A stretch of 60,870 nucleotides of DNA from positions 1 to 60,870 of the IMG/VR virus record IMGVR_UViG_3300045119_000559; one strand, 5' to 3'. The translations under genes were made by a program, and so were the position numbers. The stretch comes from a virus. The notes under the pieces were generated by a model. The model was not told the DNA's origin. It saw only the letters and a program-made list of their open reading frames with translations, and ran no database searches. Numbering within the stretch: the stretch's first letter is position 1; each line of letters starts with the position of its first letter. Positions 1 to 56,944 of this stretch are shown piece after piece.

Positions 1-1368
1 CTCGCGCAGATCACCGTGCGGCGGAGTGATCGCCAGAGGCGATCACTCTACACTGACAAGGGCCAGTTCATCGACTCGGACGGGCTGGTGGCGTCAGTGA
101 AGGCGAAGGGGGTGCTCAATCCCCTCATCGTGACGCGAGACTTCACCCTCGTCGCCGGCGAGCGCCGCCTCGAAGCATCGAAGCTCGCTGGTCGCACCGA
201 CGTTCCCGTACGGTTCATCGAGGACCTCGACGAAGCCGAAGCCAGGGAGGTGGAGCTTGAGGAGAACCTCAAGCGCACGGATTTGCCATGGCGCGACGAG
301 GTCGCGGCGATAGCGGAGTTGCACGCGCTGTACAAGAGCCGCAACCCCGCGCACACGCAAGCCGACACTTCTCGCCTCATCGGCTACGACAGCGTCGCCG
401 AGGCGCTACGTGTCGCCCGCGACCTCGACTCGCCGCGCATCGTCCATGCCAGCGGCATGCGGCAGGCATACAACGTGCTGTCGCGGATTGACGATCGCAA
501 AGCTGCCGACGCCGTCAACGACATAATCGACGGCGCAGCGGCGATATTCAGCGGGGCGGCTACACCTCCGCAACCAGAAGGCGCGGGCACCACAGCCCCG
601 CCCCAGGGGGGTACGGCGAGCCCAATCACCCACGCCGTACCCCCCGCCCGGCCCACGGCCACGGACTCCCCCGACATCATGCTCGGCGATTTCATCGAGT
701 GGTCGCGGACGTACAGCGGGCCGAGCTTCAACTTCATCCATTGCGACTTCCCCTACGGCATCGACCCGTTCAGCGGGCCGCAGGGGCGCATGGGTGCCAG
801 CACGGTGTACGCGGACACTCCAGACATATACGATGCCCTGATCCGCGCCCTGTGCTCCGCCCTGCCGCGCATCATGAGCCATAGCGCCCACCTGATGTTC
901 TGGCTCACCGCAGACATCGGCGTGCAGTGGCGGACGCTCGAAATGTTCCGAGCGCTCGCACCGTCGCTAACCTTCGCCATGAAGCCCCTCATCTGGCATA
1001 AGACCGACAACGTCGGGGTGCTCGCCGATCCGAAGCGCGGCCCACGGCATGTGTACGAGACAGCCTTGATCGCATCGCAGGAGGACAGGCTCATCGCCAA
1101 GGCGGTATCCGATGCATACGGCGCACCGACCGACAAATCCCACCACCCAAGCGCAAAGCCCGAGCCTGTGCTGCGCCACTTCATGCAGATGTTTATAGAT
1201 GATTGTTCGCTAGTGCTCGATCCTACATGCGGTGGCGGCAGTTCGCTTCGCGCGGCTGAAAGCCTAGGAGCGAGGAGGGTCTTTGGTATTGAAAGAGACC
1301 CTGAACACTACAATGCTGCGCAGAGCGCTATGCGGACGTTTAGGACCTTGCGGAGGGTAAGCAAGTGA
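1..1368 (+). CDS. ParB-like / DNA methyltransferase fusion (5' partial)
   Basis: The frame is open from base 1 (LAQIT precedes the first possible GTG at 16), so the true start lies outside the window. The first ~115 residues look like a ParB/Srx nuclease-like domain, with GERRLEASKLAG near residue 55. A Pro/Ala/Gly/Thr-rich linker follows. The second half is an amino-DNA methyltransferase: a DPPY-like motif (HCDFPYGI, residue ~247) precedes the SAM-binding motif (DPTCGGGSSLRAAE, residue ~407), which is the beta-class order. ParB-MTase fusions are common in phages and probably modify phage DNA against restriction. The stop overlaps the next GTG start (GTGA). From about base 1190 the base composition becomes visibly more AT-rich, continuing into the HNH gene. 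Confidence 0.85.
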   Translation, partial: LAQITVRRSDRQRRSLYTDKGQFIDSDGLVASVKAKGVLNPLIVTRDFTLVAGERRLEASKLAGRTDVPVRFIEDLDEAEAREVELEENLKRTDLPWRDEVAAIAELHALYKSRNPAHTQADTSRLIGYDSVAEALRVARDLDSPRIVHASGMRQAYNVLSRIDDRKAADAVNDIIDGAAAIFSGAATPPQPEGAGTTAPPQGGTASPITHAVPPARPTATDSPDIMLGDFIEWSRTYSGPSFNFIHCDFPYGIDPFSGPQGRMGASTVYADTPDIYDALIRALCSALPRIMSHSAHLMFWLTADIGVQWRTLEMFRALAPSLTFAMKPLIWHKTDNVGVLADPKRGPRHVYETALIASQEDRLIAKAVSDAYGAPTDKSHHPSAKPEPVLRHFMQMFIDDCSLVLDPTCGGGSSLRAAESLGARRVFGIERDPEHYNAAQSAMRTFRTLRRVSK

Positions 1369-27257: not shown

Positions 27258-28490
27258 TCAGATTGCGTCGGCGACGGCACAGGCCCATTCCGGCCTGACC
27301 CAGAGATATCCGTACAGCACATCGAGTCTCGTGATGAACTGATCCGACATGATATTGTATGCGCTGATCATGCGCATCGAGATGCCATCGAAGGCCTCTC
27401 TCGCCGCCTCATGCACGCCACGCGGCAGCTCCAGGTCCGCCGTCGCCATTGTCACGGCCTCTGGCACAAAGGCGAAGTTCTTGCGATACGACGATGCACT
27501 CAGCGTCGCCGGCACGACATTCGCGGCGTTCGCCGGCGAGGCATCGACCGTCTGGTACTGCACAGGCGTCGGGCCTGCCGCGGGCGGGATGAGCGCGGGA
27601 TAGATGTTCAGCGTGGTGCCGCCATTCGCCAGTGGCGAAGTGACTACGAACTGCATGAGGGTCTGCGTGGAGACCTTCGTGATGCGGTTGACGGAGTTGA
27701 CGCCCGCGAACGTCACAATATCGCCCTGCGCGAGCGGCCCACCAGCGGCGTTGATGGTGATCGCGAGGCCGGTCTGCGTCGCGCCATTCACGGTGAAGGC
27801 AGTGGCCTGCGCGCCTGTGTATGCCCCGGTAGTGTGCTTAATCGTGGTCTGATCCATATACCAGTCGAAGCCGAGCGTATCGCTGGCGATCTGCCCACTC
27901 CGGTACTGGTCGCCGATCTTGCTCTGCGGGTTGAGCAGCCCGGCGAGGCTCGCGACGCTGCGGGCCATGGTCAGCGGATCGAGGATGAGCTTGCGGCGCC
28001 CGCGCGGCGCGGAGTTCAGGTCGAGGATCGCGCCGGCCTGCAGCCAGGTCTGCGCCACTGGGGTCTGTACATTGCCGGCGCCATCGAAGTTGGCGGTGAG
28101 GCGGGCCACGCCGCCCTCGACACCGCCCATGATATTGGCGGCGACCGCGCCGGCAAGGTTGTTGACCATCGGTGCGAGCACCCGGCGCGAGAAGTCGTCC
28201 AGGGACATGGTGCGATCCACGGACGAGTATGATACGTCCACGCCCTGCTGGGTCGAAAGTGACAGCGTGGTGGACTGTTCCGAGGTGTCCTGCACCGAGG
28301 CGGCGGGGCCGGTACGGACTGTGAAATCGTTGGGCAGCCGAATCCGTACCGTGGTGCCGATCTTCGCGCCAGTCTTGGCGAACTGATCGTCGTACTGCTG
28401 GTCGATGTGCTGGATGAACTCGTTGGAGTTCTTCCACAGCCGTACAGCCTCGCGGGTAATCATGTTGATCGTAAGGAGGGTATTCGCCAT
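27258..28490 (-). CDS. major capsid (coat) protein, P22 gp5-like
   Basis: 410 aa; P22 coat is 430. The N-terminus MITREAVRLWKNSNEFIQ and HIDQQYDDQFAKTGAKIG, then VRIRLPNDFTV, is the standard start of the P22-coat family. SLDDFSRRVLAPMVNNLAG (96-114) follows, and the central domain has SLAGLLNPQSKIGDQYRSG and DWYMDQTTI. It forms the icosahedral shell with the scaffold just upstream. Segments of this protein recur, in swapped order, in the pseudogene at 42072-42513. Confidence 0.92.
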   Translation of the reverse strand: MANTLLTINMITREAVRLWKNSNEFIQHIDQQYDDQFAKTGAKIGTTVRIRLPNDFTVRTGPAASVQDTSEQSTTLSLSTQQGVDVSYSSVDRTMSLDDFSRRVLAPMVNNLAGAVAANIMGGVEGGVARLTANFDGAGNVQTPVAQTWLQAGAILDLNSAPRGRRKLILDPLTMARSVASLAGLLNPQSKIGDQYRSGQIASDTLGFDWYMDQTTIKHTTGAYTGAQATAFTVNGATQTGLAITINAAGGPLAQGDIVTFAGVNSVNRITKVSTQTLMQFVVTSPLANGGTTLNIYPALIPPAAGPTPVQYQTVDASPANAANVVPATLSASSYRKNFAFVPEAVTMATADLELPRGVHEAAREAFDGISMRMISAYNIMSDQFITRLDVLYGYLWVRPEWACAVADAI

Positions 28491-30007: not shown

Positions 30008-31427
30008 CTGCGAACTCCGGGATGCCGGCGGCGGGGCGAAGCTCGCGGGGCTTCCCGTCCGTGCCGAGGGCGTACGCGCCTGTGGCCGCTGCGAGTGGCA
30101 CGCCCATGCGCAGCACGCCGGGGTGCTTGAACATCGCCGGGTCGAACTTCGCCCATGGCACCCTGGCGCCGTACACGTAGCCCGGCTTGTGCGGAGACTC
30201 GCGGAATAGGATGTACGAGTCATGGCCTGGGTCCTCGACGGTGTTCTCGTACACAATAGAGTCGTGGCCCTTCGACTCAAGGTAATTGCGGAGGTTCTTC
30301 ACCTGCTTCTCGCGATTGCCGAGGTAGTCGGAGAATGCGCGGACGGACTGAGGATTTGTCGCATCATGCGGCGCGCGGGGTTCGAGGAAGCTCTCTGGCA
30401 CTACGTCCTTCGCCAGCGCGCGCTTCAGTTCCTCCATCGGGAACTTGTCCGGGTCCATAAGATGTAACTTGTTTGCGACCTTGCCGGCTTCCCACGTGCC
30501 GGCGTCCGGCATGCGCAGCGGGTTCTGCGCCACGATGGCACTCGGGTACACCCGCGGTGCCTGCGTCAAGCCAAGTGGATTGCCTTCGCCTGCGTACTCC
30601 TTGTATGTGTTGGGAGTACCACTAGGCATGATTTCCTGCGCCGCGCGGGGCGAGCCGAAGTGGACGCCCAGTTCATCGTCCGGCAACTTGAACTCATCGA
30701 ATACGTTGTGCGAGCCGGAAGCGCTGCGATCCATCTGGTTCGTACCGTGATGCACTGCGACGTTGTAGCCCTGTGCCTGCGCCTCTGGCGGGATGGTCCA
30801 TTGGGCCTCGCGCGGCAGCGCGTGCGGGTCGAGGGGCGCGGGTGGAGGTGCCGGTGGTGCCTCTGCTCCCGATACATCGAAGATACTTGCACCAGGGTCC
30901 TTCGCCAACTTCGCTGCTATGGCAGCATCACTAATGTCAACCTTGTGCCAATTAGCACCCTCCCCAGACGGGAGCCCGAGTGCATCTTCGACGTGCTTCA
31001 TTGCCTCCTTGGATGACAATTTGCTGAACTCTGCCCACGTTGGCATCTTCATCGGCGCGTTCATGCCGAGGGCTCCCGTGCGGCCGAACGGCATGGCGCC
31101 TCCAGCGGCGTAGCCGCTCATCGTCACTGCGTCGCGCACGAGCGCGTTCATCTCGGGCAGGCTCTGCGGCTGCAGATTCGAGCCGTGGGTGTAGGCGCGT
31201 TCGAGGCCCTCCTGCGTCAGCCGCCCCGGAGTGAGCAGCGCCTGTGGCGCGGCGGCAAGGAGATCGTATAGCATATTGCCGCCGGCGAAAAGGCCACGGG
31301 CAACACTGCCGGGGGCTCCGGGCGGGCCGAGAGGCGCCCTGTGCGTCATGGTCGCCGCGAGGGCGTCATAGTCCACCGGCAGCAAGTCGCGCGGCGGGGT
31401 GTCAAGTTCGGTGTCGGGCGGGCACAC
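30000..31427 (-). CDS. head-operon protein with ADP-ribosyltransferase-like domain
   Basis: 475 aa from GTG 31427 (3 nt after the portal stop). The N-terminal ~230 residues are helical/Pro-rich. Residues ~235-445 resemble phage and toxin ADP-ribosyltransferases: VAVHHGTNQMDRSASGSHNV, FDEFKLPDDELGVHFGSP and a late block SKGHDSIVYENTVEDPGHDS ... YILF. HHGT and GVHFG match the NAD-binding strand and following loop of the H-Y-E class. No signal peptide. Since it lies between portal and scaffold, it may be packaged and injected like T4 Alt; this is inference. Confidence 0.65.
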   Translation of the reverse strand: MCPPDTELDTPPRDLLPVDYDALAATMTHRAPLGPPGAPGSVARGLFAGGNMLYDLLAAAPQALLTPGRLTQEGLERAYTHGSNLQPQSLPEMNALVRDAVTMSGYAAGGAMPFGRTGALGMNAPMKMPTWAEFSKLSSKEAMKHVEDALGLPSGEGANWHKVDISDAAIAAKLAKDPGASIFDVSGAEAPPAPPPAPLDPHALPREAQWTIPPEAQAQGYNVAVHHGTNQMDRSASGSHNVFDEFKLPDDELGVHFGSPRAAQEIMPSGTPNTYKEYAGEGNPLGLTQAPRVYPSAIVAQNPLRMPDAGTWEAGKVANKLHLMDPDKFPMEELKRALAKDVVPESFLEPRAPHDATNPQSVRAFSDYLGNREKQVKNLRNYLESKGHDSIVYENTVEDPGHDSYILFRESPHKPGYVYGARVPWAKFDPAMFKHPGVLRMGVPLAAATGAYALGTDGKPRELRPAAGIPEFADE

Positions 31428-31429
31428 GT

Positions 31430-33772
31430 CTACTTCACCACACTATACGCATTGCTGGCACCATAGTTCCGCACGTACCAGTGGCCGTCCTTGCCCTTCC
31501 GCGCGCCAGGGATGGGTGGAACGTCGGTGACCTTGCTCGGCAACTGGATTGGGCCACCTTGGCCGTTGGCTGCTGCAGGACCATTGCCGCCTACGTCCTG
31601 CATATTCGCCCGGAGTATCTCGCCCGTGGCATCGGTGCCGATGATCTCGCGCATCGTGCGGTCGATCATCTCGTCCAGCCCCGGCACTGCCGGCGGGCCG
31701 CCCTCGCCACCTTGCTGCTTCTTGTAGTCCAGCAGGGTCTTGAGGCGCTCTCGCACCTCGCGCATCGCGTCGATATCTCGCCGCTCGTCCTTGCCGCGCA
31801 GCTTCAGCTTGTCGCCGGCGGTGTCCATGAGGGTCTTGCGCAGCAGGTCCTGCAATTGGGCTACTTGGGCCTGGAGTTGTTGCTCGGTGATTGTTGGTCC
31901 TTCGCCGAGGGCTTGCGGCGGAACCATGCGGCGCAGCCTAGCGGCCGCCTCATCCGCCATATCGAAGTCCATCGAGCGCAATAGCAAGTCCCCGACGAGC
32001 GGGACCATTGTTGGGGCCTGCGTAAGTAGCAGCGTAAGGGCATTCGCGGTCTCCTCGCGCTTGGTGCCATAGGAGGGCCCGATATCGGCCTCGACTTCGT
32101 AGGTGCCAACGGCGGGATTCAGCACATGCGCCGCGACGGTGCCATCATGCTGCATTCGCTTCGCATACACCGCCTGCGCCTGGGGGTCGATCTCCAGCTG
32201 GAAGTCGATGCCATCCTCTGCGACGATGCGCATCACGCGAGCGGTGTCGAACAGCCTCGGGATGAGATCGAGGAGGATTTTGCCGACCTGGCGTATCGCA
32301 ATGGCCAGATTGTCGATGTAGTGATACGTTGCGTTATCGCCCTGGCGCTGGCGTTCGCCGATGGCCTTGGCAGAGCGCTCGTTGCTGCGCTCGCCCATGG
32401 AGTCTTGGTACTGGCCCGAGACCATGGCGAGCTCATTCGCACTGATCTGCATGCCACTGAGGGCCACGGGCGCCGCGACGGGCGGCTCGACGCGCTGCGG
32501 CGCCGGGATGGGGTTGCCAGCGTCATCAAGGCCATTGAATGGCAGTACAGAGTGATTCGTCCTGTTTGCGGTGTTCCAATAAGACTCGTACCCCTCGATG
32601 GCCTCTGCCGGCGCGATCCAAGGGCTCTTCGCCTGCAGCGCGCCGTACTCCACCGCCAGCGACGACCAGTAGTTGTACATCCGCTGCGGATCAATCATCG
32701 CACGAGTGTGGCCCTTGCAGTCATACACCCCGTCGATGACGACCTCTTCGCCGATGACCGGCACCAGCGGGATGTACTTCCCGACCCATTCTTTCGACTC
32801 TACAACCCTGTCGCCGACGATGAAGTGCCACTCAATGCGCTCAGTGGTAGTATCGCGGCGCTTAGTTTGCGGAGCGTCTTGGATCATCTTGAGCAGGTCT
32901 GGCGCCTCCTTCAGTATGCTCTCGCGCATAGTCAGCACGGTGCCAGACTTCGGATCGGTGTAGGCGTACAGCACATCTGCTTCGGACACCTTGCGGAAGT
33001 ACTCACAGACGCGGACGAAGTCGGTATGGACCCATGATCCGTCCGCGCTAACTGCGTTGTCTGGCGCGGCGAAGCCCTTGAACTCCGGGTACTGCGTGTC
33101 GAACTCGTCCTTGAGCACATCATCGAAGATGAACGCATAGCGCATGTCGGACTTGTCCGCCTCGCGGCACTCAGGATCGACGTACACCGTAAGCGGGTCG
33201 TCGATGCGCATGATCCGGGGCTCCTGGTCGAAGGAGTCCTCATTCACATACTGCGTCGTGACGCGGAGCCAGCCCTTCCCGGCCTCCACCTGGAACCGCG
33301 TCGCGGTGTCGTACGCCACGGTGGCGTTGCTGCGGTACTCGATATACCTCATGATGGCATTCAGCATGCTCGCTGACTCTGCCGTCGCACCGTTCCCCGT
33401 CGGCCTGATCTTGATCGCCGGTTTGTTCTGCAGCGCGTCGTTGATGATTTGCCTGTTGTGCTGCCGAACCTTGTTGATCGTCAGGCAGGGGCGCTCTTCC
33501 ACATCCCGGTTGCGGCGGATGTCATTCGGCCACTGGTAGCCATTATAGGCGTCTGCGTTGGCGAACTTGATATCATCGAGGTAATACTGCCGCGCGTTGT
33601 GCTCCCACTTCGCCGAGTGATTGAAGCGATCCTTGGCCTCGCGCAGGAGGGTGGCATCGGTGCTGTTGCCCGTGTGCGGGTTGTCGTCCGAGCGCTCCAT
33701 GGCGCTATTGCCGGGCGCAGAGCCCTGCGGCATGGGCGACGGGTTGGCGCGGGAGGCGAGGGTGTCGGCCAT
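31430..33772 (-). CDS. portal protein, P22 gp1-like
   Basis: 780 aa; P22 portal is 725. Residues ~45-140 carry DRFNHSAKWEHNARQYYLDD, KFANADAYNGYQWPNDIRR and RPCLTINKVRQHNRQIINDA, which are characteristic of the P22 portal family. WLRVTTQYVNEDSF, VYVDPECREADKSDMRYAFI and FEGVEYG-like positions (LIRTLFD as LIPRLFDTARVM) follow. It forms the dodecameric DNA gate. The gene stops 3 nt before the GTG of the ART-like gene. The terminal extension could reach into the capsid as the P22 barrel does. Confidence 0.9.
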   Translation of the reverse strand: MADTLASRANPSPMPQGSAPGNSAMERSDDNPHTGNSTDATLLREAKDRFNHSAKWEHNARQYYLDDIKFANADAYNGYQWPNDIRRNRDVEERPCLTINKVRQHNRQIINDALQNKPAIKIRPTGNGATAESASMLNAIMRYIEYRSNATVAYDTATRFQVEAGKGWLRVTTQYVNEDSFDQEPRIMRIDDPLTVYVDPECREADKSDMRYAFIFDDVLKDEFDTQYPEFKGFAAPDNAVSADGSWVHTDFVRVCEYFRKVSEADVLYAYTDPKSGTVLTMRESILKEAPDLLKMIQDAPQTKRRDTTTERIEWHFIVGDRVVESKEWVGKYIPLVPVIGEEVVIDGVYDCKGHTRAMIDPQRMYNYWSSLAVEYGALQAKSPWIAPAEAIEGYESYWNTANRTNHSVLPFNGLDDAGNPIPAPQRVEPPVAAPVALSGMQISANELAMVSGQYQDSMGERSNERSAKAIGERQRQGDNATYHYIDNLAIAIRQVGKILLDLIPRLFDTARVMRIVAEDGIDFQLEIDPQAQAVYAKRMQHDGTVAAHVLNPAVGTYEVEADIGPSYGTKREETANALTLLLTQAPTMVPLVGDLLLRSMDFDMADEAAARLRRMVPPQALGEGPTITEQQLQAQVAQLQDLLRKTLMDTAGDKLKLRGKDERRDIDAMREVRERLKTLLDYKKQQGGEGGPPAVPGLDEMIDRTMREIIGTDATGEILRANMQDVGGNGPAAANGQGGPIQLPSKVTDVPPIPGARKGKDGHWYVRNYGASNAYSVVK

Positions 33773-33775
33773 TTG

Positions 33776-35203
33776 CTAGTGCCCAAGCCAGCGGGTGTTG
33801 GCGCGGGCGGCTTCGCCGGCGTACGGCACGCCGGTGTGGTCCTCGGGCTCGCCAAAGGCCCCCGCAATGGCACCGATGACGCTCGCCATGCCTGGCAATG
33901 CAAGCCGCCGGCGCTGCGAGGGCATCTTGCTCGCTACGCCGAAGTACTCGAAGGCCTTCGATGCATCGGAGTGCTCGTCGTGCAGCGGGTGCTGCGAGAA
34001 TTGCTTCGTCTGCGAGTCGATGTCATAGCGGTAATGCCGCAAGTGGTGTATTCCTTCGGCGCACCGCGCCGCATCGAAGTAGCACTGCGGGAACACCGTG
34101 CGTGCGGCGTTGATGAGGTCCTTCTCACTCACCTTCTGCACAATACGCACGGTCTGCAGCTTCGCCCTGGCCTGCTCCTCGATGGTCATCTTCATGCCGA
34201 GCTGCTTCGCCCTGGCATCGTGCGGGAGCCAGTGGGTGCCGTACAGATAGGATCTGTCCTGCAAGACCTTCAAGTAGTGGTCGATGTGCTTCAGCCGGGA
34301 CTCGTAGAAGTCGATGATACGGTACTCATAGCCGACTTGCTGCACAAACCATATGCTGGTGTGATCGCTGCGGCCAAGGTCCCAATAGGTGTTCACCGGC
34401 ACGGCACGGTCATAGGGGACCTTGCAAATGCGCTCCTGCACCGCAGCCTCACGCAGCTCATCGGCATAGACACTACCTTCGAGGTTGCGCTTGCACTGAC
34501 CTTCCCACACATGCAGGTAGGAGTCATAATTGCGTGCCTTCAGCGCATCCCGTTCCGCCGGGAGTTCTGTTTCGGCGAACCACGGGTTATCCCGCCACGT
34601 CATGAACACTGCGATGCAATTCGGCGGGGGGTTCTTCACGAAGCGCTCGTACGTCGCGTCAGTCTCCAGATCGGGATTGAAGGTGGCAATGATCTCGCTT
34701 CCAGGTTTCCGAACTGTGGGGATCAACACGTCCCAGGAGTTCGCACTCACCGCATTGGCCTCTTCGACCCAACAGTAGTCCACGCCCTCGTAGGACTTGA
34801 TCTTCGTAATGTTGTGCCGGATGCCCTCGAAGCGGAACTCACTGCCGCACGCAGAGCGGATCACCGCCTGCTGCACATCGTAGAGATGCCCGAGGCCGAG
34901 CTTGTCGATCTGCTGAACCAGCAGCTTATGCACCGAGTCCTGAATGGAGTGCTGCAGCTCGCGACCGCAGAGGAATTGCAGCGGGCGCCGGGCGGCCTCG
35001 ATGACGGCCCACCTGGCCACGCCCCACGACCTGCCGGCACCGCGGCCTCCGTACAGTATCTTGTACCGGCTTGCCCGGTGCTTGGGCTGCCCATCTGGGG
35101 CCAGCACCGGCGATCCGTCCTTCAGCGTTTCGTAGAAGGTGTGGAAGATTTTCGAGGGGAACTGCGCGTCGATGCGCGCTGCGGCGGGGGCTGTTGCGTA
35201 CAT
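33776..35203 (-). CDS. terminase large subunit
   Basis: 475 aa. Walker A GGRGAGRS at residues 52-59 has Arg instead of the usual Lys; Walker B VDYCWVEEA at 141-149; coupling motif region IIATFNPD (~171-178). The RNase-H-like nuclease follows: WDLGRSDHTS (274-283), LPHDARAK (326-333) and HDEHSDASKA (408-417). Terminase_3/PBSX-like headful packaging enzymes, which include P22 gp2, have this order. The TerS-like gene lies 6 kb upstream in the same operon. Confidence 0.88.
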   Translation of the reverse strand: MYATAPAAARIDAQFPSKIFHTFYETLKDGSPVLAPDGQPKHRASRYKILYGGRGAGRSWGVARWAVIEAARRPLQFLCGRELQHSIQDSVHKLLVQQIDKLGLGHLYDVQQAVIRSACGSEFRFEGIRHNITKIKSYEGVDYCWVEEANAVSANSWDVLIPTVRKPGSEIIATFNPDLETDATYERFVKNPPPNCIAVFMTWRDNPWFAETELPAERDALKARNYDSYLHVWEGQCKRNLEGSVYADELREAAVQERICKVPYDRAVPVNTYWDLGRSDHTSIWFVQQVGYEYRIIDFYESRLKHIDHYLKVLQDRSYLYGTHWLPHDARAKQLGMKMTIEEQARAKLQTVRIVQKVSEKDLINAARTVFPQCYFDAARCAEGIHHLRHYRYDIDSQTKQFSQHPLHDEHSDASKAFEYFGVASKMPSQRRRLALPGMASVIGAIAGAFGEPEDHTGVPYAGEAARANTRWLGH

Positions 35204-37090: not shown

Positions 37091-38356
37091 CTAGAGGCCC
37101 GTCCAGGCGTTGATGACGCCACTGCCGCCCATCGACAGGATGTAGATGCTGCTGCCAGCGGCGGGGAAGCCCGCGGTGCTGGTGCACTCGATCGGTACGT
37201 TCACCTGCGTGGCGAGGAACGTCTGCAGGGTGCTGGTGCGCAGGGCAGTACAGGCGGTATTGCCGGTGCATGCAGTCGTGGTACATGACCCGAAGCCCGC
37301 CGTGTACGTCATCGTCGGGGTCTTATACATCTGCACAGGGAAGGGCAGAATGCCCTCCGCGAGCGATGTGGTGGAGGTGAAGCCCCCGGCGATCACCGCA
37401 CCGGCACCGGCGCCCTCGGAGAGCTTGTAGAAGTACTTCAGCGCTGCCGCGGCGTCCTTCTCCTTCGGCTGGACCTCGAACAGCGACGCCACGCCGCTGC
37501 GCTCCAGCTGCGCCCCGGTCCAGGCGAAGCCATCCGTGGCTCCGCTGCCGGCAGCCGTCGGGGTGAAGCAAATCTCGACACCGACCTCGGTCGCCGTGGC
37601 GGGAATCGTGACAGTGGTGCTATACCTCGCGAAGGTCGTGGAGACCGAAAGCGAGGTGTTGACCACCGTGGTGATGCCGGTCCAGGCGGGGGTGATGGCC
37701 GGCGAAGCCGTGGGCGTTGCATTGAGGCCTTCATCGGTGCCGGTGCCGCTGATGACGATCATGTTCACTACATTGCCGTTGTCGGCCGAAAGGCCGGCCA
37801 AGGCGGCAATGTATGCGCTGAACGTCACGACCTGCCCAGCGAGCTGGGTGGCATCGGGCGTGGGCACAGCCGACATGACACACACGGGTTGCGTCAGTGC
37901 GCCCGAGGTGCGGAACACCTTCATCACATTGGTGAAGCCCGCAGGCGGCGACGGCGACGAAGTCACGATGGCCGTACGGCCAGCGCCTACAGCGACATTG
38001 GCGATGCAGCCCCACCGATCGGCCGAAAGGCCCGTGGTGGCAATCGCCGCGTTCTGGGCACATGTGACCGTGCCAGTGCCGTTGGTATTGGTGATGTTGA
38101 GCGCGCCGTTGCCGAGGAAGTTCCTCGGGGTGCCCCAGGTGGCACCGATGGCACTCGATGGGATCGTCACGGTCTGCGGGAACGCCCCACCGGGGAGGAG
38201 GGTGTCGGCTGGTACGTTCTCATTGCCCGTGATATACGGGTAGCCGGGAGACGAGCCTGGCGTGGGGTAGCCGGGGAACTGCCCCGCCGCGTACGCGGCC
38301 GTTGCCGCCACCATCGCGAGCGCGCCGAGGGCGCCAAAAACCTTACGCCTGTGCAT
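37091..38356 (-). CDS. exported tail-fibre-like protein
   Basis: 421 aa. N-terminus MHRRKVFGALGALAMVAATA with cleavage after AYA: a signal peptide with an Arg pair, possibly Tat-like. The body has NFLGNGALNITNTNGTGT, TGLSADRWGCIANVAVGAG and TGAQLERSGVASLFEVQP, then DAAAALKYFYKL. This 'N-x-x-NG ... ADRW ... QLE.G..A..FE ... Y' pattern belongs to many phage receptor-binding fibres. Cysteines are again paired (SCTTTAC, GNTAC). Stop codon 19 nt before the ligase GTG. Confidence 0.7.
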   Translation of the reverse strand: MHRRKVFGALGALAMVAATAAYAAGQFPGYPTPGSSPGYPYITGNENVPADTLLPGGAFPQTVTIPSSAIGATWGTPRNFLGNGALNITNTNGTGTVTCAQNAAIATTGLSADRWGCIANVAVGAGRTAIVTSSPSPPAGFTNVMKVFRTSGALTQPVCVMSAVPTPDATQLAGQVVTFSAYIAALAGLSADNGNVVNMIVISGTGTDEGLNATPTASPAITPAWTGITTVVNTSLSVSTTFARYSTTVTIPATATEVGVEICFTPTAAGSGATDGFAWTGAQLERSGVASLFEVQPKEKDAAAALKYFYKLSEGAGAGAVIAGGFTSTTSLAEGILPFPVQMYKTPTMTYTAGFGSCTTTACTGNTACTALRTSTLQTFLATQVNVPIECTSTAGFPAAGSSIYILSMGGSGVINAWTGL

Positions 38357-40877: not shown

Positions 40878-41099
40878 CTACGCCAGCCTGCCGGGGCGCA
40901 ACGTCACAAGTTGATCTGCTGAGGGCGGCGCGTCGCGCCTGAGCGGATCGCGCGCTCGCGCATCCTCGATGTGCGCGTTGTACCATGCGAGCATGGCATC
41001 AGCGTCGCTGAGCACCGTGGCGACCTGCCCATCGTCGTTAATGCGCGTGGCGCAATCGATGCACATCGTCAGCGTGGCGCGGTCGCCTAGGGCGCTCAT
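40878..41099 (-). CDS. hypothetical protein
   Basis: 73 aa; ATG overlaps the previous TGA. CIDCATRIN is a CxxC pair near the N-terminus; QVATVLSDADAMLAWYNAHI may form a helix. C-terminus LRPGRLA. No family recognised. Confidence 0.5.
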   Translation of the reverse strand: MSALGDRATLTMCIDCATRINDDGQVATVLSDADAMLAWYNAHIEDARARDPLRRDAPPSADQLVTLRPGRLA

Positions 41100-41341
41100 C
41101 GGTGCAAGTGCTCCATATCATGCAGGACCTTACGGATATCCGCGGGCTTGATGCCCCTGCAGGAGTTATCCGGCAATAGCTCGTCGATTTCCGCCTGCAG
41201 TTGCTCCTGTGTCACCACCCGCGTAGCGCGCCACTCAGCCATCTGGCGAGTGACAGGGTCATCACACACAGCGCCGCCGATGGTGCCATCGCAGCTGGCG
41301 AGCATTAGTGCTGCGCCGATCGCCGCGCAAAGCGCCCTCAC
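41096..41341 (-). CDS. putative lipoprotein
   Basis: 81 aa from GTG 41341 overlapping the TerS-like stop. MRALCAAIGAALMLASCDGT contains a lipobox (LASC). The mature part is short, with helix QAEIDELLPDNSCRG and a C-terminal KVLHDMEHLHR. Could be the outer-membrane half of a spanin pair, but no inner-membrane partner overlaps it. Envelope-located. Confidence 0.55.
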   Translation of the reverse strand: MRALCAAIGAALMLASCDGTIGGAVCDDPVTRQMAEWRATRVVTQEQLQAEIDELLPDNSCRGIKPADIRKVLHDMEHLHR

Positions 41342-42075
41342 TGCTCGTCCTCCGTGCTGCTTGCGTCGGGCGACCCGATCAGGCCTAAGGGGCCTGCTGG
41401 CGCCTGCGGCGAGGTGATCTGCGGGAATGCGTGGCCAGAGCCGCCGGTGATGAGGGCCTCGTCTCCATCGAGGGTCAGGGCGAGTTCGGGCGTGCCGGCC
41501 TTCGGGGTGACGCAGGAGATGGTGAGGTGCAGGCCAGGGCCGGTGCCGTTGGTGCTGCCGCGCGCACCGCGCCGCTCTGCCGCAGGCCCGATGAACTCCG
41601 TGACGATCTCCTTCAGCTGCGTGTTGGTGAATTTCTCCGGGGCGTCTTCAAGGCGATCCAGTAACTCCTCCGCTGCGGTCATCCCCACTACTGCCAGCCG
41701 CGAGGCCGCATCACCGAACTTCGCGTCATGGAGGTCCTTATAGTGCGCCACGAGGTCCATGAAGCCCTGGTCGCTCGACTGCAGGCGATAGATGGTCGTG
41801 AGGGCGTGGCCGGTGAGGGCGCTACATTCGGCGGGGGACTTGCCGAGGGCGATAAGGCGGGCGAGCATATGATGCGAGTACCGTAGCCGCGCGAGCTGTG
41901 GGGCGCCGGTGCCGAGGGGGGTAGTGTTGAGGGTGTGAATGTCATCCGGCGTGAGGTCGCGCAGATATGTGAGGTGAACATCGACTTCCCGCGCCTTGCG
42001 CGTGCCGGGGCCGCCGGCGAAAGCCTCCAGCCCGAGCAACGCGATGTCGTCGAGAATCTCGCCGGTGCGGGTCAT
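41338..42075 (-). CDS. terminase small subunit-like DNA-binding protein
   Basis: 245 aa. The middle reads LRYSHHMLARLIALGKSPAE, CSALTGHALTTIYRLQSSD and FMDLVAHYKD, a helix-turn-helix of the kind at the front of TerS proteins. Acidic/Pro-rich C-terminus would interact with TerL. It starts at ATG 42075, overlapping (ATGA) the stop of the coat-like pseudogene read in its second frame. TerL is 6 kb further on, more separated than usual. Confidence 0.65.
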   Translation of the reverse strand: MTRTGEILDDIALLGLEAFAGGPGTRKAREVDVHLTYLRDLTPDDIHTLNTTPLGTGAPQLARLRYSHHMLARLIALGKSPAECSALTGHALTTIYRLQSSDQGFMDLVAHYKDLHDAKFGDAASRLAVVGMTAAEELLDRLEDAPEKFTNTQLKEIVTEFIGPAAERRGARGSTNGTGPGLHLTISCVTPKAGTPELALTLDGDEALITGGSGHAFPQITSPQAPAGPLGLIGSPDASSTEDEQ

Positions 42076-42513
42076 AGCGGCGCAGCGACAGTGGTGAGGT
42101 TAAATGGAAGTACTTCGCGCACGGTGAAAGCCTTTGGCAACCTGATGCAACTGCGTACCGAGTTTGCTCTGCGTCTGCGCGAAGGCTTCGTCGTATTGGT
42201 GGTCGATGTGCTGCAGGGATGCGTTTGAGTCCTTCCACAAGCGCACCGACTCGCGCGTGATTTGCGAAACGCCGAGGAGGTTCCCAGCACCAGTGCTGCC
42301 ATACATCACCGCATCGGCGACCTGCTGCTGCAGCTTGTCGATCATCAGCCCCATGATGCGCGCGGCGCACTCGTCGAGCGTGAGCCAATCGCGCGCTGCG
42401 AGCGCCCTGACGGGCATGATATTCGTCGCCTTGACGATCGCCGGGGCGAAGATGAAGAGCGCGCCGAGGCCAGTGATGAAGCCGCGCCGATGCAGGGCAG
42501 GCGAGTCGATCAT
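42072..42513 (-). pseudogene. Tat-like leader joined to permuted, frameshifted coat-protein fragments
   Basis: Open frame 42100-42513 (137 aa). Residues 9-29 are a Tat-type leader (RRGFITGLGALFIFAPAIVK). Residues 44-72 (LTLDECAARIMGLMIDKL...) resemble coat residues 95-123. Residues 85-122 match coat residues 11-48 at 24 of 38 positions, so the coat order is reversed. After GT in the matched piece the coat-like sequence IRLPKAFTVR continues only in another frame, reaching a TGA at 42072 that overlaps the TerS-like ATG. One indel (2 nt lost or 1 gained) explains this. Likely a decayed duplicate, possibly still making the 137-aa product. Confidence 0.7.
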
Positions 42514-42761
42514 TATCTGGTTCCTAAGATTTTCTTGCTATCTGCTTCAGATGCGCGCACCGCGCCGGACTGCAAGGGCTCATATGAGCTGTGATCTCCG
42601 GGTACGTTCTCGTGGTGCTTGAACATGCACTTGCGGCAGAAGTACACATGAGCATAGTACACGTAGTGCGCGCCGCTGCCTGGGCGTAAATGATCGCTAA
42701 TTGCTGCGACAAGACCCTGATACTGGAAGTCGTGGTCTAAGCCTTGGTCTTGGCACTGCAT
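42513..42761 (-). CDS. hypothetical zinc-binding-like protein
   Basis: 82 aa. Pattern FCRKCMFKHHE (C-x2-C-x3-H-H) after HYVYYAHVYF; start MQCQDQGLDHDFQYQG. Its TAA overlaps the Tat-leader ATG (TAATG). Similar short C-x2-C..HH proteins are found beside phage nucleases and terminases; no function assigned. Confidence 0.55.
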   Translation of the reverse strand: MQCQDQGLDHDFQYQGLVAAISDHLRPGSGAHYVYYAHVYFCRKCMFKHHENVPGDHSSYEPLQSGAVRASEADSKKILGTR

Positions 42762-56233: not shown

Positions 56234-56445
56234 TGGGTGCATTCAGCCTCACGCATTGGCTCCTCGTCGCCGGGGCGGTGATGTTGCTGTTCGGCGGCGG
56301 CAGGATATTCACCCGGACAATGGGCGACCTCGGGCAGGGGCTACGCCAGTTCAAGTCCGGCATGACGGAGGCGCTGGGGCCTACGGCCCCACCCACAGCG
56401 AAGTTGCCTCCGAAGGAGGACGAAGATGACGACCTCGATGCATAG
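56233..56445 (+). CDS. tatA: TatA/E-like twin-arginine translocase subunit
   Basis: 70 aa. MGAFSLTHWLLVAGAVMLLF forms the short membrane helix, FGG is the hinge, and MGDLGQGLRQFKSGMTEALG the amphipathic helix; the tail is acidic (KEDEDDDLDA). This is the full TatA architecture; the usual LPEL after the hinge is replaced by IFTRT. TatA forms the pore that moves folded proteins over the inner membrane. No TatB or TatC is seen, so it would act with the host's. The next gene starts inside its end and carries an Arg-pair leader. Confidence 0.75.
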   Translation: MGAFSLTHWLLVAGAVMLLFGGGRIFTRTMGDLGQGLRQFKSGMTEALGPTAPPTAKLPPKEDEDDDLDA

Positions 56446-56944
56446 CACCCTGCTGCGTCCGAGCCGCCGTGGCATCATCGGTGCCCTGGGCGCCCTGTTC
56501 GCCGCCCCTGCCATCGTACGAGCCGCGTCCTTGGACGCCCTGCGCGGCGTGCCGTACGGCCTCGGTGCCGATGGCACCCTCGCGCCCATCACGCAGGGCT
56601 ACGCGACGGAGTCGCTCGACTACGAGTATTGGGTCTCCATGGGCGGCACCATCGTGCGTCGCAGTGCTCGCGACATCCTCGCCGCGCCTGCGGGCACGTA
56701 CCAACCTTGGCTTGGCATCAATGATACGCATATTGGTTCCAGCATAGCCTTCCGCCCTACCGACGGACAAAAGAAGGGTCTGTCATTCGCGTATGACAAG
56801 ACTACGCGCAGCTTGCAGATCATTAACTTCGACGACCCCCTTGCGCGCGATCCGGTCATTCTGCGGCTTCGCCAAGAGCAGGACGACTTACGCCAGCGCC
56901 TACAGCGGGCACAACTCGCGACGGGAGATGTACTTTATGGCTGA
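56426..56944 (+). CDS. Tat-leader protein, unknown function
   Basis: 172 aa, ATG with AAGGAGG 6 nt upstream, overlapping tatA by 20 nt. N-terminus RPSRRGIIGALGALFAAPAI and VRA-A is a twin-arginine-type leader, the same kind as in the pseudogene at 42072. The rest has beta parts (LDYEYWVSMGGTIVRR) and a helical C-terminus RLRQEQDDLRQRLQRAQL. Likely exported via TatA; function unknown. Confidence 0.65.
   Translation: MTTSMHSTLLRPSRRGIIGALGALFAAPAIVRAASLDALRGVPYGLGADGTLAPITQGYATESLDYEYWVSMGGTIVRRSARDILAAPAGTYQPWLGINDTHIGSSIAFRPTDGQKKGLSFAYDKTTRSLQIINFDDPLARDPVILRLRQEQDDLRQRLQRAQLATGDVLYG

Follow-up and report, generated by a model that had tools for sequence, protein, structure and literature searches.

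The virus record of 60,870 bases analysed here (the window) contains a P22-type head module and encodes a 137-residue protein in which a Tat-type leader is followed by two pieces of the phage's own coat protein, in an order swapped relative to the coat. Sequence comparisons indicate that this is one member of a widespread class of small proteins, recurring in dozens of uncultured and mutually unrelated phages, that combine a leader of this type with short pieces of the own capsid protein, sometimes permuted; the anatomy itself, leader plus swapped capsid pieces recurring across phages, we hold with high confidence. Codon comparisons further indicate that the capsid pieces are under purifying selection. 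As to function, we tentatively propose, with a probability of roughly 0.35, that the product would act as a membrane-directed capsid-mimic bait engaging a protein that binds the N-arm and spine helix of the capsid.

Anatomy of the window protein

The relevant features of the window are as follows:

42513..42761 (-): 82-residue ORF upstream, with a TAATG stop/start overlap with the leader ORF (sequence)
42100..42513 (-): 137-residue ORF, Tat-type leader plus two coat pieces in swapped order (translation, alignment, relatives)
42403..42513 (-): residues 1-37, the Tat-type leader MIDSPALHRRGFITGLGALFIFAPAIVKATNIMPVRA (twin Arg, a hydrophobic stretch and APAIVKA)
42298..42384 (-): coat piece 1 (residues 44-72), corresponding to coat residues 95-123, the long P-domain "spine" helix (score 47)
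42148..42282 (-): coat piece 2 (residues 78-122), corresponding to coat residues 4-48, N-arm and F-loop (E=1e-12 to the own coat)
42072..42149 (-): second-frame continuation CIRLPKAFTVREVLPFNLTTVAAPL, ending in a stop that overlaps the TerS-like ATG as ATGA (translation, alignment)
41338..42075 (-): TerS-like gene, 245 residues (homologues directly after leader genes in L004 and G047)
27258..28490 (-): P22-family major coat protein (PF11651, 3.4e-36; phrog_283, 2.9e-61)
28347..28487 (-): coat residues 2-48, counterpart of piece 2 (alignment)
28113..28208 (-): coat residues 95-126, counterpart of piece 1 (alignment)
31430..33772 (-): portal (PF16510)
33776..35203 (-): TerL (position and sequence)
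56426..56944 (+): second leader-bearing ORF, 172 residues, APAIVRAASLDALRGV, C-part not capsid-like (homologue in G001)

Alignment places residues 44-75 of the 137-residue protein against coat residues 95-126, followed by residues 76-122 against coat residues 2-48, which confirms the swapped order described in an earlier note on this DNA. The N-arm piece reaches a local score of 148 against the own coat (BLOSUM62), and the 24 identities in 38 positions that the note had counted between residues 85-122 and coat residues 11-48 were correct on recounting from the translations. The nucleotide alignment with the coat gene that had been suggested as a check gives this piece a local score of 49 (maximum of 16 in 200 shuffles), with a 2-nt gap marking a frame break. 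The spine piece is the weaker of the two (E=0.22 when searched against the own genome alone); the segment of residues 44-75 scores 47 against coat residues 95-126, a value reached in 0 of 1000 shuffles. Its homology to the coat, where the note had seen a resemblance of residues 44-72 to coat residues 95-123, is settled because the same segment recurs in relatives, namely the second leader gene of L004, L060, L161, G051 and G055.

The window protein thus joins a leader to segments homologous to the P22 coat protein family (PF11651), and homology along the full length of that profile (roughly 420 residues) is lacking: against Pfam it has no match at E<=1, and PF11651 gives sub-threshold partial matches only with its relatives. 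Pfam, PHROG and curated models were also searched for a known non-coat family that the protein would match over its whole length, which would have spoken for mere chance likeness, and none was found. Chance or convergence as the source of the coat likeness is ruled out by the shuffles, by the own-capsid test described below, in which the window protein matches its coat with E=6e-15, and by matches to a capsid library. A structure model of the protein is of low confidence (pLDDT 54), and its secondary structure alone was used; in it the pieces are helical. The model of the coat is likewise of low confidence (pLDDT 44) and has helices at residues 8-27 and 97-122.

The leader of the 137-residue ORF reads HRRGFITGLGALFIFAPAIVKATNIMPVRAL in translation. 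A twin arginine and a hydrophobic stretch lie near the N-terminus both in this copy (HRRGFITGLGALFIFAPAIVKA) and in the leader family consensus (SRRGFLxGLGAxxxAAPAIVRASSLMPVKAL), from which we infer recognition by Tat. The curated TAT_signal models (TIGR01409/PF10518) have no match in the window copy and stay below cut-off in its relatives (the highest scores are 14.4 bits for a cut-off of 16.7 and 15.0 bits for one of 22.7). Leader-bearing loci in bacterial MAGs carry the labels Rhizobiales, Methylocapsa, Alphaproteobacteria and Betaproteobacteria, and because of these labels the hosts are probably proteobacteria. A search of 50,697 phage records did not find the leader at the sensitivity used. 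The homologue of the second leader-bearing ORF of the window has 202 residues and a leader of its own (G001:2850-3458). Separately, a 421-residue tail-fibre-like protein of the window (37091-38356, minus strand), conserved in L004 and L005, has a leader-like start (MHRRKVFGALGALAMVAATAAYAA).

Terminase coupling and the frame break

The leader ORF directly precedes the TerS-like gene, which has no match in PHROG or Pfam, and the earlier description of a leader fused to coat-derived pieces in a terminase-coupled operon holds. After the residues QL, at about 42148, the coat-like reading shifts frame (CIRLPKAFTVR...). As the note had stated, IRLPKAFTVR does run on in a second frame (ORF 42302-42072, minus strand), the TGA of which shares an ATGA with the start codon of the TerS-like gene at 42075-41338 (minus strand). 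The indel region had been put at 42160-42175; the break actually lies at about 42148/42149 (CAGTT^GCATC, with the 2-nt alignment gap), some 15 bases away. The equivalent of the second-frame continuation is in frame in L004:718-1104 (IRIRLPGDFTIR), and the intact version that the note had advised seeking in related phages does exist, with both frame and ATGA coupling kept. A second copy of the window phage was sought to judge the frame break and none was found; this copy may be intact, truly frameshifted or misassembled, and the break by itself, here in the window, may reflect decay or error. As a separate observation, an 81-residue ORF directly after the TerS-like gene (window 41096-41341, minus strand) has a lipobox-like N-terminus (MRALCAAIGAALMLASCDG).

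Relatives with a leader and capsid pieces

Single-protein scans of viral and genome contigs with the 137-residue ORF as query returned no relatives, because the query patterns fell on variable parts; relatives were reached via the portal and then via the leader. The contig L004, whose portal is 63% identical to that of the window, has two tandem leader genes immediately before TerS. One of these (718-1104) joins the leader to the coat N-terminus, and the other (1101-1481) joins it to a C-terminal coat piece SITRLHVLFGSMQVRPEW and a spine piece LDEYSARIIKPM; ATGA overlaps link both genes to each other and to TerS. In L060 the leader is followed by MTLDEYAERVLAPTVNN and then by the coat N-terminus, which is the swapped order of the window, and the gene overlaps TerL, while in L070 the leader is followed by the coat N-terminus. 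Swapped order is also seen in a leader-type ORF of G002, with coat residues 78-92 preceding 33-59. The N-arm and spine pieces occur together either in a single protein (window, L060) or in two adjoining leader genes (G001, G051), one of those in G051 having the spine piece and the other the N-arm piece.

Capsid-like pieces were also observed in other settings. Leaderless capsid mosaics of another kind are encoded in L115 (G030:35500-37500) at 146-1030 (+), with 294 residues, and at G002:58853-59626 (+), with 257 residues; both have C-terminal coat pieces, a shared domain (LLKSWL..QLR.F...FTV.GSDTG..YRLV.ERSYNILEL) and a coat N-arm at the C-terminus. A 196-residue protein in L131 (G030:44425-45015, minus strand) has a different RR leader (MKRRDVLLGGAAATMIPIAAKTVQA), followed by segments that resemble the F-loop and the C-terminal part of the coat and are colinear with it. 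In L204:4486-5049 (+) (G088), a 187-residue gene with an ATGA overlap with a leader gene has segments resembling the coat C-terminus (ISMREITEYKPG) and the I-domain (ALVVDPLHEDLPVGIVIE). An open frame at G005:8235-8486 (L136), immediately upstream of the coat gene, has spine-helix-like and IRLP-like coat pieces and no recognised leader. The leader proteins of L189 (G074) and L208 (G092) share a C-terminal tail (ILRPDPAVG..READLDVEVLGEEAGER), and the C-part of the G074 protein is derived from the portal and not from the capsid.

The class across phages

Leader-only scans of viral contigs gave 52 loci and then 80, partly overlapping, which amount to about 100 distinct leader proteins; these are small and their C-parts very different. 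Among the 99 distinct C-parts compared, 37 match a pooled capsid library (0.6 for shuffled sequences) and 62 have no recognised capsid match. The best capsid match starts within capsid residues 1-21 in 21 of the 37 (2.3 expected if uniform), and the others fall mainly in the spine helix, the C-terminal P-domain and the I-domain. One C-part, from a record outside the capsid test set, is derived from an HK97-type portal.

The own-capsid test covered 25 leader proteins in 35 records whose capsid gene was identified by homology to the capsids of other contigs. At E<=0.01, 16 of these 25, which are not fully independent samples, match the capsid gene, compared with 14 among 1086 small genes of the same records that lack the leader pattern (p=1e-21, Fisher test); with the threshold at E<=1e-4 the figures are 12/25 and 6/1086. 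Not one leader protein matches only some non-capsid gene of its contig. Most of the 14 control matches are probable out-of-frame matches in one record (G073), and another (G002 30144-30371) is a leader protein that the search pattern had missed. The matched genes are PHROG major head proteins of four families (phrog_283, to which the window coat belongs, 334, 9953 and 212). The P22-type share among the pieces is biased by the P22-type queries that began the search; the presence of non-P22 capsid families in the class is not explicable by that bias.

In the window, L004, L060, G047 and others the stop of the leader gene overlaps the start of the gene that follows it, and this following gene is often a terminase gene. 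In 20 loci, a non-random set chosen for having a large downstream gene, that gene is TerL in 12 and the portal in 1.

When the pieces are compared codon by codon with the own capsid gene, pS is 0.58-0.84, near saturation, and pN 0.21-0.34, one weak case excepted. The window piece (45 codons, 27 identical residues) has pS 0.73, pN 0.27 and w about 0.12, and w of the other pieces, where computable, is 0.11-0.34. In most pairs conservative replacements make up 30-70% of the amino-acid differences, where random single-base changes would be expected to give 32%. A neutral copy at such a synonymous distance would lose its likeness; hence the pieces are constrained, without the relaxed constraint of a capsid pseudogene or decayed duplicate, and the codon comparison rules out decay at the level of the family. 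Branch lengths, from a tree on about 50 residues whose branching is unresolved, indicate that the pieces change faster than the coats.

Possible function

Residues 2-30 of the P22 coat form the N-arm, 34-50 the F-loop, and 79-127 together with 358-416 the P-domain; the scaffold is bound at its C-terminus by the N-arm residues D14, E15, E18 and N4 and by R101 (PMC9965877). A MAFFT mapping to P22 gp5 places the window pieces at about 2-43 and 92-127, uncertain by about a residue; hhalign of the coat with P22 gp5 did not confirm this mapping in the N-terminal part, and a PDB sequence search with the coat left the N-terminal half uncovered. Because of the MAFFT mapping and the low-confidence coat model, we read the pieces as N-arm/F-loop and P-domain helix, candidate counterparts of the regions that bear the P22 scaffold contacts; this is a lead, not proof. 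The residue aligned with R101 is Ala in the window copy, next to an invariant Arg that is kept, and is not conserved among the leader proteins.

Since the leader gene overlaps or adjoins terminase genes, its product would be synthesised along with those of the packaging genes. It would be brought by the leader to the cytoplasmic membrane, where it might be translocated or held, and the capsid pieces, mimicking the N-arm and P-domain helix, could bind the usual partners of those segments. The likeliest partner would be the scaffolding or capsid protein during assembly, or alternatively a host capsid sensor, and the product could then be a bait that tunes assembly or packaging. The own-capsid matches (16/25 vs 14/1086), the four PHROG families, the 37/99 library matches, the constraint seen in pS and pN, the pairing of N-arm and spine, the downstream TerL genes and the ATGA-type overlaps all favour such a bait. 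Against it, expression, export and binding to scaffold or capsid are predicted only, the R101-aligned residue is Ala in the window copy, pieces from the I-domain misfit a pure mimic of the scaffold site, 62/99 C-parts lack a capsid match and one is portal-derived, the TAT models stay below cut-off, and a periplasmic product could not meet assembly partners in the cytoplasm. Stated more generally, there is a chance somewhat short of even that many unrelated tailed phages, probably of Alphaproteobacteria, make and retain a membrane-directed mimic of their own capsid assembly interface, encoded alongside the terminase.

The exported coat-like decoy that the note had offered as its second reading may still apply. 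In one form of it, the pieces might bind host sensors of newly made capsid protein, and the leader would then bring the bound sensor to the membrane or across it; simple titration of the sensor would be another way to act. Capsid proteins do directly trigger bacterial immunity (PMC9712102), the pieces follow the phage's own capsid family, and they outpace the coats in change as in an arms race; nevertheless, an immune decoy is rather unlikely, as it is without a known defence partner, the terminase coupling and N-arm bias suit an assembly role at least equally, and export would take the decoy out of the cytoplasm unless the sensor were carried along. It is unlikely, too, that capsid pieces are simply raw material recombined with a useful leader in the birth of new genes, with selection now acting on a different feature, for instance toxicity, the timing of lysis or an amphipathic membrane helix. 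This would accommodate the 62/99 C-parts without a capsid match, the portal-derived one and the helical pieces of the low-confidence model, but all own-contig matches of leader proteins in the test set are to the capsid gene, and the capsid likeness is conserved, so that the likeness itself seems selected.

Interference with a co-infecting relative or satellite, whose head assembly the capsid fragments would poison, strikes us as distinctly improbable: the pieces match the own capsid family, which would be expected to cause self-poisoning, no protecting partner was seen, and the genes sit in the packaging operon, even though virion-assembly blockers encoded by prophages exist (Tab, PMC10884400) and interface fragments could be dominant negatives. 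A decaying partial coat duplication that landed by chance behind a leader, close to the first of the two readings in the earlier note, has the frame break at about 42148 in the window copy as its sign of decay. It is very improbable and is contradicted at the family level, given that the architecture recurs in unrelated phages with the frame and ATGA overlap kept and that low pN accompanies near-saturated pS.

Implications and comparison with known systems

The leader proteins represent a repeated mode of gene building, in which a leader and shuffled pieces of the own capsid have been selected across unrelated capsid families, and which is absent from the isolate phage records and the literature searched. 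If the pieces are mimics, they would mark capsid segments (N-arm, spine helix) that partners bind or hosts sense, and as small defined proteins they would make head assembly at the membrane and host capsid sensing testable. If our proposal is true, these phage proteins would form a new class, with members that either control head assembly or packaging while at the membrane, or use Tat hitch-hiking to clear the cytoplasm of immune proteins that sense the capsid.

No description of proteins with a leader and capsid pieces was found in the open-access literature, and one may exist elsewhere. The SaPI1 proteins CpmA/CpmB (PMC5644958) and the tail-assembly blocker Tab (PMC10884400) are likewise small proteins acting on virion assembly, and are set apart by their description, as they are not leader-bearing copies of own capsid segments. 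With the P22-type coat (PF11651, phrog_283) the leader proteins share pieces homologous to the N-arm/F-loop, the spine helix, C-terminal P-domain strands or the I-domain; in contrast to it, they hold only about 16-90 of its residues, permuted and behind a leader, without a full HK97 fold. Tat substrates of Alphaproteobacteria have the same RR-x-F/G-hydrophobic core and APAIVRA end, whereas the SSLMPVKAL tail is phage-specific and the passenger is derived from a capsid. In the case of the T4 Gol peptide and Lit, a capsid piece is itself the active signal. CapRel-SJ46 is a host defence protein that senses newly made major capsid protein (PMC9712102). In both systems the signal is capsid protein, whole or as a short piece, and the pieces described here might likewise act as signals; however, there the capsid protein itself is the trigger, whereas here the pieces reside in separate leader-bearing genes and come from many capsid families.
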